From assembly GCF_000337515.1 (NCBI RefSeq), contig NZ_AOIQ01000006.1, forward strand, positions 130,265-194,264: DNA of 64,000 nt, read 5' to 3'. Below, one piece after another: positions 29,366-48,690 of the stretch (the first letter of the stretch is position 1; every line of letters starts with the position of its first letter). Source of the DNA: Halovivax asiaticus JCM 14624. GTDB lineage: Archaea; Halobacteriota; Halobacteria; Halobacteriales; Natrialbaceae. The translations under genes and the position numbers were made by a program. The notes beneath the pieces are model-generated. The model worked only from the letters and a program-made list of their open reading frames with translations, was not told the origin of the DNA and ran no database searches.

Positions 29366-29650
29366 ATGGAACTGCGGGTCACCGAGCGAACGGACGAAGA
29401 ACTCTCTATCGAGATCGCCGGCGAGGACCACACCTTCATGAACGTCCTGAAGGGCAGTCTCCTCGAACACGAGCACATCAACGCGGCGACCTACGACATC
29501 AATCCGGAGCAATCCGGTGGGCAGACCGATCCGATCTTGACGCTCAAAACCGACGGGTCGATCGAACCGATCGACGCGCTCGAAGAGGCTGCGGGCGACA
29601 TCAGAACGAAGGCGGCCGATTTCAAATCGGCGTTCGAAGCAGCAGCCTGA
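29366..29650 (+). CDS. rpoL: DNA-directed RNA polymerase subunit L
   Basis: The 94-residue RpoL (Rpb11-like) forms a heterodimer with RpoD in the assembly platform of archaeal RNA polymerase. The diagnostic stretch is [20 protein letters not shown], followed by [12 protein letters not shown] and a C-terminal helical tail. The frame is open upstream from 29189, but that part is the 5' end of the divergent rhomboid gene; ATG 29366 starts the family sequence. It is convergent with hisF, 35 bases away. Confidence 0.95.
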
Positions 29651-29685
29651 GAACGTCCCGGAACCAACGCGACGACCCGCCGTTT

Positions 29686-30501
29686 TTACAGCCGGATCGC
29701 GAGCCCGCGATCGGCGAGTGTTTCCTTCGTCTCCTGAATCGAGTACTCGTCGAAGTGAAAGATCGACGCGGCGAGTGCCGCGTCGGCGTCGGCGTCGGTG
29801 AACACGTCGTACATATCCCCCGGTTCCCCACATCCCGACGAGGCGATGACGGGCGTCGAGACGGCCTCGGTCACGGCGGACGTGAGCGCGAGATCGTAGC
29901 CATCTTTCGTTCCGTCCCGGTCGATCGAGTTGACGAAGAGTTCGCCAGCACCGCGGCGTTCGGCTTCGCGGGCCCACTCGACGACGTCGATACCGGTCCC
30001 CTCGCGACCGCCGCTTTTCGTACATTCGAACCAGCACGACTCGCCGTCCACGTCGACGTACTGCTCCCCCTCGTCGTCGAAGCGACGCCGCGCGTCGATA
30101 CTGATGACGATACACTGACTGCCGAACGCCCGGGCGCCGTCGTCGATGAGCTGGGGATTTTCGAGTGCGCCAGTCGTAATCGAGACCTTGTCGGCGCCGG
30201 CTCGGAGCGTCTCTGCGATGTCGTCGACGGTTCGGATCCCGCCGCCGACGGTCAGCGGGATGAACACCTCGTCCGCGACCGACTCGACGACGTCGAGCAT
30301 CGTTTCTCGCCCCTCCGCCGAGGCGGTGATATCGAGGAAGACGAACTCGTCGGCGCCCGCGTCGTTGTATGCGCGCGCCATCTCGACGGGGTCGCCGGTG
30401 TACTCCAGATCTTCGAAGTTGACACCGGTATAGACGGCGGCGTTCCCGTCATCGTCGAGGTCGACGTCGATACAGGGAATAATGCGTTTGGTGAGTCCCA
30501 T
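29686..30501 (-). CDS. hisF: Imidazole glycerol phosphate synthase cyclase subunit
   Basis: The 271-residue TIM barrel cyclises PRFAR with ammonia from HisH to imidazole glycerol phosphate and AICAR in histidine synthesis. The N-terminal KRIIPCIDVDLDDDG includes the catalytic aspartate (Asp12); GGGIRTVDD, SITTGALENP, VISIDARRRF (second catalytic aspartate) and the final SGCGEPGDM complete the phosphate-binding pattern. Length is normal. No other his gene is in the window, so the pathway genes are dispersed. Confidence 0.96.
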   Translation of the reverse strand: MGLTKRIIPCIDVDLDDDGNAAVYTGVNFEDLEYTGDPVEMARAYNDAGADEFVFLDITASAEGRETMLDVVESVADEVFIPLTVGGGIRTVDDIAETLRAGADKVSITTGALENPQLIDDGARAFGSQCIVISIDARRRFDDEGEQYVDVDGESCWFECTKSGGREGTGIDVVEWAREAERRGAGELFVNSIDRDGTKDGYDLALTSAVTEAVSTPVIASSGCGEPGDMYDVFTDADADAALAASIFHFDEYSIQETKETLADRGLAIRL

Positions 30502-46784: not shown

Positions 46785-47939
46785 ATGGACTTCGAACTCA
46801 CCGACGAGCAGAAGCAGCTTCGCGAAGAGGTTCGACGCTTCGCGGAAAACGAGATCGCCCCCATCGCCGAGGAGTACGACGTCGAGGAGAAGTACCCCCA
46901 CGAGATCATCGACAAGGCCGCCGACATGGGCCTGCTCGGGCCGCACATCCCGATCGAGTACGGCGGCGCCGGCTACGGCTCGCTCGAAGTCGCCATGATC
47001 GTCGAGGAACTGTTCGCCGTCGACGCCGGCATCGGCCTCTCGATCATCTCCACCTCGTTCGGCTGCGAGTCGATCATGCACTTCGGGACGGACGAACAGA
47101 AGGAACGATTCCTCGAACCCGTCGCGGCTGGCGAGGCGATCACCGGTGCCGCAATCTCAGAACCCGACACCGGATCGGACGTCTCTTCCGTCTCCACACA
47201 GGCGGAGAAAGACGGTGACGAGTGGGTGATCAACGGCAACAAGATGTGGATCACCAACGGCTCCATCGGTGACTTCTTCGTCGTCCTCTGTGAAACCAAC
47301 CCAGACGCCGAGGGCCGCTACAACGGCTTCTCGCAGATCGTCGTCGAATCCGACCGCGACGGCTTCGAGGCCGACAAGATCACCGGCAAGCTGGGCATCC
47401 GCGCCTCCGACACCGCCGAACTCATCTTCGACGACGTCCGCGTCCCCGAGGAGAACCTGATCGGCACGCAGGACGCCGCCTTCATGCAGCAGATGCAGTT
47501 CTTCGACGAGACCCGAACCGCCGTCGCCGCGCAGGGTGTCGGGATCGCCAAAGGCGCACTCCGGGCCTCCCTCGAGTACGCACAGGATCGCGAGCAGTTC
47601 GGCCGGCCAATCTCGGACTTCCAGGCCATCCAGCACAAGATCGCCGACATGGCCACCGAGGCCGAGGCCGCCCGGAACCTCACGTACAAGGCCGCCTGGA
47701 AGGTCGACCAGGGCGAAGACATCACCAAACTGGCCTCCATGGCCAAGGAGTTCGCCTCCCGCATCGCCGTGGACGCCGCCAACGAAGCCGTCCAGATCCA
47801 CGGCGGCGCCGGCTACGTCAACGACTTCCCCGTCGAACGCTTCTACCGCGACGCCAAGATCACCCAGATCTACGAAGGAACCACCGAAATCCAGAAGAAC
47901 GTCATCGCCCGCGAACTGCTCGGCAAGGGCGCGTTCTAA
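46785..47939 (+). CDS. Acyl-CoA dehydrogenase
   Basis: The 384-residue FAD enzyme introduces the first double bond of fatty acyl-CoA. It begins [20 protein letters not shown], has the flavin-binding [20 protein letters not shown] and [14 protein letters not shown], and ends with the catalytic-base region [20 protein letters not shown]. It is divergent from the dehydrogenase/hydratase fusion and so probably coordinately regulated. ATG 46785 is supported by the family start. Just after the stop lies a dense cluster of short hairpins. An electron-transfer flavoprotein gene is not in the window. Confidence 0.95.
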
Positions 47940-47959
47940 GAACCAACCTTTTGCGCTGC

Positions 47960-48216
47960 GGGCCGGCTTCGCCGGCCCTCGGCAAAACGTTGATGAAAAG
48001 CACTCCTCCTTCCCCTACAGCGTCGCTACGCGACGCTTCCGGGTCAGTCGTCGGCCCGCTCGCAGACAGAGTCTGCTCGCGGTACAACGTACTTATTGTA
48101 AGCCAGCCTTTCCTCGTTGAGCGAAAGCGTCGCTTTCGCGATGCTCGGAAGCGCTTTCGCTTCCGTCGGGTAGCGCGCCCTCACTCCCGTTCGGTCGCGA
48201 TCCCGGCCACCGGGAT
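47960..48216. repeat. Cluster of six perfect short hairpins
   Basis: Six non-identical stem-loops, all perfectly paired, lie between the convergent ends of the acyl-CoA dehydrogenase and the Ser-Asp-tail gene: 47960-47978 (8-bp stem, loop TTC), 48019-48037 (8 bp, loop TAC), 48062-48076 (6 bp, loop AGA), 48121-48139 (8 bp, loop GTC), 48146-48165 (8 bp, loop CTTT) and 48200-48216 (7 bp, loop CCA). The stems differ in sequence, so this is not a tandem repeat. Loops are three or four bases, good for DNA or RNA hairpins. The region has no coding character. Function unknown; see findings. Confidence 0.75.
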
Positions 48217-48219
48217 TGC

Positions 48220-48690
48220 TTACGAGTCGCTATCAGCGTCCGTATCGGTGCCGTCGCTGTCAGAATCAGTGTCAGTGCCGTCGCTATCAGAATCCGAATC
48301 ACTCCCATCACTATCCGAGTCTGAATCTCCGTCGTCGCTGTCCGAATCCGAATCGCCGTCGCGGGCCGAGGCACGAGCGGGTGGGTTCGATCGGGTCGTT
48401 GCGGTGCCGCGTTCGGCCGACTGCGGATCCGATCGCCGAGCACGGCTCGCGGAGCGTTCGTCGGGTTCGAGGTCCCGCTCGGCCGACGTGGACCAGCCGA
48501 TCGAAAAGAGAACGATCGGTGGAACGACGTACGACGCGATGGCCAGAAGCGCGAACAGGGAGTCCACGAAGACCAGGATCCCAAACATCGCGAGAACTGC
48601 GACCGAGAGGGCGTGGATCGGTGTCTCCACGTACCGCCGATAAAACTGCCAGAACTCCCGAAGGGTTCCGCTACCGGTGCTCGTAGTCAC
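48220..48690 (-). CDS. Two-helix membrane protein with Ser-Asp repeat tail
   Basis: The 156-residue protein begins with a short amphipathic segment (GTLREFWQFYRRYVETP), has two membrane helices (residues ~24-45 and ~48-68), then a basic-acidic linker and a C-terminal Ser-Asp/Thr-Asp repeat of about 45 residues (from ~112 to 156), with an imperfect 11-residue period (SDSDSDG/TDTD). Such tails are very soluble and calcium-binding in other proteins. Codon composition changes in the tail (GAC/TCG/AGC tracts). The function is unknown. It ends in the hairpin cluster. Confidence 0.7.
   Translation of the reverse strand: MTTSTGSGTLREFWQFYRRYVETPIHALSVAVLAMFGILVFVDSLFALLAIASYVVPPIVLFSIGWSTSAERDLEPDERSASRARRSDPQSAERGTATTRSNPPARASARDGDSDSDSDDGDSDSDSDGSDSDSDSDGTDTDSDSDGTDTDADSDS

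Follow-up and report, generated by a model that had tools for sequence, protein, structure and literature searches.

Among the closest described counterparts of the repeat reported here are the PATEs and SMR-A of Haloquadratum walsbyi. As far as the accessible part of their description shows, these are haloarchaeal, non-coding, short, and palindrome-rich, exist as heterogeneous copies, and include small elements that sit inside larger ones at favored positions (PMC3119063), all of which is equally true of our element. PATEs are tied to IS605-type ends, whereas the copy number of the element is independent of Y1 transposases, and the accessible text on PATEs does not describe placement directly behind the stop codons of core genes, which is where the element sits (PMC3119063). 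REP and BIME sequences are likewise dispersed extragenic hairpins, some within 15 nt of a stop codon; the available portion of a survey puts about 11% of counted E. coli REPs in that range, and the archaeal genomes in its table include no haloarchaeon (PMC12306157). REPs keep the sequence of the palindrome (PMC12306157, same portion), whereas the element keeps its linkers and varies its stems.

Haloarchaeal transcript ends provide a second comparison. In Haloferax volcanii, according to the excerpted report, T stretches serve as the intergenic termination motif, some hairpins also terminate transcription, and in vivo termination by one of these hairpins reached 59% of transcripts (PMC7237163). 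The element resembles such signals in having a T-run close behind the stop codon and hairpins near 3′ ends; however, the signals in that excerpt are single motifs (PMC7237163), and the element is an array of 150–260 nt with invariant linkers and an A-run that pairs with the T-run. An intrinsic, bacterial-type terminator has its hairpin first and then the T-run, whereas in the element the T-run comes first. Haloarchaeal 3′-UTRs are also reported, in the available part of that work, to set the direction of translational control (PMC2636863). Rfam families are similarly structured and covarying, but none matches the interval beyond chance: for 47800–48400 the sole match was a chance-level CRISPR-DR20 (16.9 bits against a gathering score of 42, E 1.3). 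Topic and motif-string searches found no earlier description of the element, subscription papers, supplements, and preprints lying outside their scope.

The locus lies in a stretch of 64,000 nucleotides from Halovivax asiaticus JCM 14624, hereafter the window. A sequence-only reading had reported six different perfect hairpins at 47960–48216, and we found all six there, occupying the 280 bp gap that separates an acyl-CoA dehydrogenase gene from a convergent open frame. Hairpins were defined as non-overlapping perfect stems of at least 6 bp with loops of 3–4, under the same rule for interval and shuffles. Dinucleotide shuffles of the interval (2,000) gave 0, 1, or 2 hairpins and never 3 or more, which bears out the claim of a density above random and rules out chance or composition as the origin of the six. 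The cluster is the densest hairpin spot in the window: among 3,188 sliding 257-nt windows over the 64 kb, four or more hairpins occur only here and at one spot at 29541. The fold-energy check proposed by that reading gave z = −4.95 on the plus strand and −7.0 on the minus strand. The second, weaker hairpin-rich spot (29541–29800) has four hairpins and is ruled out as a copy of the element, as it lacks any element match.

The cluster represents a single copy of a modular, dispersed repeat of haloarchaea. Its features are as follows, with hairpins 1 to 6 numbered as in the sequence-only reading and the element's own hairpin 4 named as such.

47937–47939, plus strand: TAA stop codon that ends the acyl-CoA dehydrogenase gene, with the element beginning at most 4 nt away.
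47940–48083, plus strand: element core, a whole-model match of covariance model R1 at 159.3 bits.
47944–47954, plus strand: 5′ strand of outer stem P1, CAACCTTTTGC, containing the T-run at 47949–47952.
47960–47978, plus strand: hairpin 1, 8 bp stem of variable sequence, triloop.
47982–47992, plus strand: 3′ strand of outer stem P1, GCAAAACGTTG, covarying with the 5′ strand (G-C/C-G/A-T/T-A).
47992–48012, plus strand: linker 1, GATGAAAAGCACTCCTCCTTC, invariant in the copy alignment.
48013–48043, plus strand: P2, outer pairs 48013–48015 with 48041–48043 around hairpin 2, with CC/GG to GT/AC covariation in other copies.
48019–48037, plus strand: hairpin 2, 8 bp stem, loop of 3.
48044–48055, plus strand: linker 2, TCAGTCGTCGGC, invariant.
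48056–48082, plus strand: P3, consisting of CCGC/GCGG outer pairs and hairpin 3.
48062–48076, plus strand: hairpin 3, 6 bp stem, loop of 3.
48102–48116, plus strand: linker 3, GCCAGCCTTTCCTCG, common to several full-length copies.
48117–48170 (core 48119–48169), plus strand: two-hairpin module M1 (hairpins 4 and 5), inserted relative to the closest relative, G003.
48121–48139: hairpin 4, 8 bp stem, loop of 3.
48146–48165: hairpin 5, 8 bp stem, loop of 4.
48167–48208, plus strand: region of the element's own hairpin 4, intact in G003 and imperfect in the window (by eye).
48200–48216, strand unassigned: hairpin 6, 7 bp stem, loop of 3, 3 nt from the stop of the convergent frame.
48220–48690, minus strand: convergent open frame of 156 aa, stop at 48220–48222.

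The convergent frame has a long Asp/Ser tail, encoded by 27-nt repeats at 48226–48306. It has no Pfam match, and relatives of it occur in 50 of 61 family genomes (E ≤ 0.001), although the weak ones may reflect the Asp/Ser tail.

Searching the genome for more such clusters, another check that had been suggested, returned further copies by every route. Blastn of the interval found 21 places at 74–89% identity, mostly within its first ~125 bases; model R1 (152 positions, E ≤ 0.01) gave 27 matches and model R3 gave 33. We used 26 of the R3 matches and set aside seven, six being the same places on the other strand and one being weak (E 0.06). With copies dispersed in this way, an isolated local curiosity is ruled out. 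R1 also matches in 26 of 41 relatives. In a class survey in which scoring was confined to each genome's ten best candidates, it matched in 191 of the 292 genomes sampled, spanning 60 of 77 genera. A phylum sample had matches in 20 of 196 genomes, all 20 in the order of the source organism. The DNA pattern of linker 1 was present in at least 110 stretches in named genomes; among the 80 matches listed, the genera are Natrinema, Haloterrigena, Natronorubrum, Natronococcus, Natrialba, Halopiger, and similar ones, which we assign to the Natrialbaceae, in part on the taxonomy given in five plasmid records.

The element has a fixed order. An outer stem with TTTT/AAAA encloses hairpin 1; the linker GATGAAAAGCACTCCTCC leads to hairpin 2, the linker TCGTCGGCCCGCTC leads on to hairpin 3, and an extension follows on the 3′ side. 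Cutting the copies of the Halovivax genome at common words gave a consensus plan whose first part reads stop codon, ACCGAACTTTTGC, CTGC, hairpin 1, TCGG, CAAAACTTCGATGAAAAGCACTCCTCCTTCC, hairpin 2, and whose second part reads TCAGTCGTCGGCCCGCTC, hairpin 3, CTCGCGG; many copies continue 3′ of this with CCAGCCYTTCCCCG and the element's own hairpin 4. Linkers are near-invariant across copies and hairpins are variable, with 73 distinct hairpin-1 segments among 77 elements. The six stems of the cluster differ from one another since constancy lies in the stretches between them. The earlier dismissal of a slippage or simple-repeat origin was right. The outer stem carries TTTT nearly always, and this T-run pairs with the A-run. 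At the pair next to these runs, G-C, C-G, A-T, and T-A all occur, and a C.C mismatch is frequent at one outer-stem position (32 of 79). Linker 1 (47992–48010), in its GATCA..CTCCTCC form, appears to resemble the 3′ end of 16S rRNA (anti-Shine-Dalgarno). Among 77 elements, hairpin-1 triloops fall partly into reverse-complement sets (TTC in 14 and GAA in 7; GGA in 5 and TCC in 5), as if hairpin 1 may sometimes flip.

Pairing in the variable stems is maintained by change on both sides. Alignment A1 (12 copies) had 91.8% of cells paired and 14 pairs changed on both sides, with 49 double-change cells compared to 16.2 in shuffles and 3–11 in slid versions. Alignment A4, covering the P1 part in 22 copies, had 96.5% of cells paired and 41 double-change cells, compared to 13.1 in shuffles and 0–5 in slid versions. 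The copies in both alignments were hand-picked, and the stem had been noticed before its test. Covariation is thus present beyond both the shuffled and the slid controls, in pair counts that would look the same for RNA and for DNA. Orthologous copies agree: between the window copy and that of G001, three P1 pairs differ, each on both sides (by eye), and the hairpin 3 pair 48066–48072 is A-T in the window and C-G in the G001 and G004 copies. The prediction that the stems are kept by compensatory changes therefore holds in A1, in A4, and at the orthologous site.

We also compared the two strands. Linker 1 is predicted to be more open on the sense strand (unpaired 0.84 vs 0.63 on the antisense; sense more open in 64 of 67), whereas linker 2 is slightly more paired there (unpaired 0.47 vs 0.54). 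The antisense strand folds better, with a mean z of −4.2 vs −3.1 for the sense strand, the latter being better in only 16 of 67. Among 278 element hairpins there are 5 G.U and 15 A.C pairs. An argument for DNA-level copying from the scarcity of G.U was withdrawn: the 23S rRNA of eight genomes, under a like rule, has 2 G.U pairs in 103 hairpins, and since haloarchaeal 23S rRNA is equally poor in G.U under one rule, this scarcity proves nothing.

Most copies begin close behind stop codons. At 21 of 26 places in the Halovivax genome, a sense stop codon (of open frames of at least 60 codons) ends between −8 and +3 relative to the outer stem. Of the other five, two lack an open frame; in two more the stop lies at −10 and at −16, the latter with a partial second P1 between stop and element; and in the fifth another module takes the place of the 5′ part. 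Elsewhere, we collected 107 distinct elements in named loci, 79 of them with a recognizable outer stem. A sense stop codon adjoins 49 of these 79 (within −10 to +3), compared to 0–3 of 79 in eight shifted controls, and an opposite-strand stop occurs at the same element end in 0 of 79. By eye, four of the remaining 30 also adjoin a stop that the rule missed (L094, L105 minus, L172, and L176), and some others follow SRP RNA genes. Rfam identifies SRP RNA in L091, L137, and L025, with the element 3–11 nt further downstream, and the upstream sequence of L115 is the same as in these three loci. A further sequence (GTGAAACTTGCCAT..AAAAGAACATCGATC) is common upstream of the element in several genera (L103, L104, L124, L143, L183, and L059); it reached the gathering score of no Rfam family in L103, L104, L124, and L059, and is possibly an unannotated RNA gene or the end of a small conserved gene.

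The carrier genes were named with NCBIfam, some proteins being cut at the locus edge and scoring below the curated cut-off. Those of the Halovivax genome include EF-2, IF-2, uL16, RadA, UvrB, GyrB (with the element 16 nt off), the PolD large subunit, TFS, two thermosome subunits, glutamate dehydrogenase, IlvA, IlvE, MvaD, PstB, and acyl-CoA dehydrogenase. More loosely labeled are a geranylgeranyl-reductase-like, a CysD-like, and a CoA-ligase-like protein; two proteins have no match. Elsewhere, 22 of the 49 gene-adjoining elements lie behind genes homologous to one of the 23 Halovivax carriers compared, of which two were short or weak cases outside the NCBIfam scan; with a few thousand genes per genome, we estimate the overlap expected by chance at below one.

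Proximity to stop codons, a single orientation, stable carriers, and the ends of SRP RNA genes together point to a role at the transcript 3′ end. With slightly better than even confidence, we interpret the element as a cis-acting structured 3′-UTR or transcript-end element with exchangeable hairpins. This comes close to the mRNA-end element that was among the earlier suggestions: the placement behind stop codons and the orientation fit it, and the function itself is deduced from them. Past the stop codon, the nascent RNA would fold into the outer stem with its T-run and then into a row of GC-rich triloop hairpins. The folded RNA could set the transcript 3′ end, with termination or processing taking place at the U-run or beyond it, and might shield the message against 3′-to-5′ decay. 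Unpaired linkers would be recognized by a putative protein or by the ribosome, and the stems would drift by paired changes and be exchangeable because pairing alone would matter in them. The family would also spread through duplication, as its near-identical free-standing copies indicate. Against a 3′-end role are the better folding of the antisense strand and the slightly more paired state of linker 2 on the sense strand. Moreover, if the T-run 10 nt past the stop ends most transcripts, the hairpins would lie outside the mRNA.

One rival is a plain terminator array: transcription would stop at the T-run past the stop, and the hairpins would serve as back-ups that catch read-through arriving from either direction. 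The terminating T stretches and hairpin of Haloferax volcanii (PMC7237163, excerpt), the TTTT in nearly every outer stem, and the copies behind SRP RNA genes agree with such an array. However, its T-run (47949–47952) precedes the hairpins, opposite to an intrinsic terminator; a consensus scan gave 3 terminator-like sites in 4 kb vs 2.6 expected; and a T-run terminator needs neither invariant linkers nor a paired A-run. The strand specificity of the family speaks against a two-way version, and we regard the array as improbable. The strong bidirectional terminator proposed for this cluster is not supported, given 0 of 79 opposite-strand stops, the position of the T-run before the hairpins, and convergent genes that can each have their own copy.

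A translation-linked stall element, comparable to those E. coli REPs that lie no more than 15 nt from a stop, would explain a stop distance below 15 nt in nearly all gene-linked copies. REPs less than 16 nt from the stop lower translation, in the available portion of that survey (PMC12306157), and haloarchaeal 3′-UTRs are involved in translational control, in the part of the work cited (PMC2636863). Yet copies also follow SRP RNA, which is untranslated, and down-regulation would be odd for EF-2, uL16, and thermosome; this reading seems to us very improbable.

Neighboring genes were counted as well. Convergent neighbors are slightly more frequent for carriers (24 of 44) than for other genes (310 of 650), as counted with a rough gene caller and with the longer gaps partly being the element itself; enrichment at convergent gene ends is thus weak, was set aside, and counts against a 3′-end role. 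Facing pairs of elements some 0.2–0.5 kb apart occur in L012 and in G002, G003, G008, G041, G048, G055, and G056. In L012, the pair of the Halovivax genome (G000:C21:99649 plus and 100000 minus), each element lies behind its own gene of a convergent pair.

The history of the orthologous site shows both persistence and loss. Behind acyl-CoA dehydrogenase, 10 of 21 orthologues have an element or recognizable outer stem by eye (G000, the window genome, and G003, G001, G004, G005, G008, G013, G009, G015, and G012), a reading that excluded a second G006 match (L225). G002 retains a degenerate version, G030 and G026 no more than a T-run remnant, and the other eight lack the element. Its tie to this gene is thus old and recurrent but not essential; missing behind the same gene in many relatives, it is therefore dispensable over evolution, a further point against a 3′-end role.

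In the closest relative, G003, whose acyl-CoA dehydrogenase is 99% identical, hairpin 1 and the first two linkers of the element are the same as in the window copy, and hairpin 3 differs in a single loop base. A different unit, CCCCCACC-TTC-GGTGGGG, stands in place of hairpin 2, and M1 is missing: the alignment has a gap of 52 columns for a module of 52 nt. Hairpin 6 is not kept in G003 and is perhaps incidental for that reason. M1 is single-copy in the Halovivax genome at the blastn level, and modules of the M1 plan occur at the corresponding place in one G003 and one G160 element. Modules recur within elements at fixed points, in 3 distinct cases for M1, 23 for M2, and 12 for M3. These comparisons show that hairpin units are swapped or inserted as blocks.

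Some members of the family are not linked to genes. Near-identical gene-less copies number four in Haloterrigena alkaliphila (G265), three in G180, and two in G179, their cores identical in model score within each genome. The pairs listed are 87–99% identical over ~157–223 bases, with largely unrelated flanks, and such identity implies recent movement. Five haloarchaeal plasmids also carry copies between genes. A near-identical free-standing short version of ~160 bp occurs in single genomes (L231–L239 and L247), and in L232 a long direct repeat, CTGTACTGAACGGCAACTACG.GTGCGAAC, borders the copy on either side, an arrangement that points to tandem units or recombination. By eye, free-standing copies had no clear terminal inverted repeat of the kind expected of a MITE, and no transposase was recognized by eye among the open frames between two neighboring ones. 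Signs of recent mobility are absent from the gene-linked class, which includes the window copy. Most likely, the family includes some mobile free-standing relatives.

Gene-less copies, some recently multiplied, behave like mobile DNA and count against a 3′-end role. The main rival is a purely mobile, PATE-like element: non-autonomous DNA, kin of the Haloquadratum PATEs and small mobile repeats, with hairpin ends for transposition and a preference for gene 3′ ends, whose link to housekeeping genes would reflect target choice and survival and no gene role. In addition to the near-identical copies with unrelated flanks in single genomes, four of them in Haloterrigena alkaliphila, it would account for hairpin modules that nest at fixed points, as SMR-A does in PATEs in the accessible description (PMC3119063). 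We nevertheless think it unlikely: elements start a few bases from stop codons in strict orientation, the same carrier gene families recur across genera, viral contigs hold no exact element match, and an unsystematic look noticed no target duplication. Copy number is also independent of Y1 transposase (PF01797; Spearman −0.03 across 41 genomes). The Halovivax genome has 0 Y1 matches and 26 element copies, and five genomes without Y1 have at least 10 copies. Dependence on IS200/IS605 or RAYT was ruled out by this lack of correlation; TnpB has one match over the cut-off in the Halovivax genome. The REP/BIME-like origin once suggested for the cluster thus survives insofar as it is a dispersed repeat, but not as a strict REP, since linkers and not the palindrome are conserved and the family tracks no Y1/REP-type transposase.

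The 3′-end reading can be extended to a class-specific "3′-end code," in which hundreds of haloarchaeal species would use one cis-acting RNA architecture behind core genes and SRP RNA, with linkers read by a putative factor and hairpins serving as exchangeable cassettes, the whole forming a post-transcriptional regulon. We offer this extension tentatively, as a possibility against which we would still lean. If it were true, the transcripts for chaperonin, translation, transcription, replication and repair, and SRP RNA would be matured or stabilized together. These results highlight that a repeat resembling REPs or mobile palindromes can remain stably tied to housekeeping genes. Little is understood of archaeal 3′ ends, and the element provides a testable handle on how transcript ends are defined and protected.
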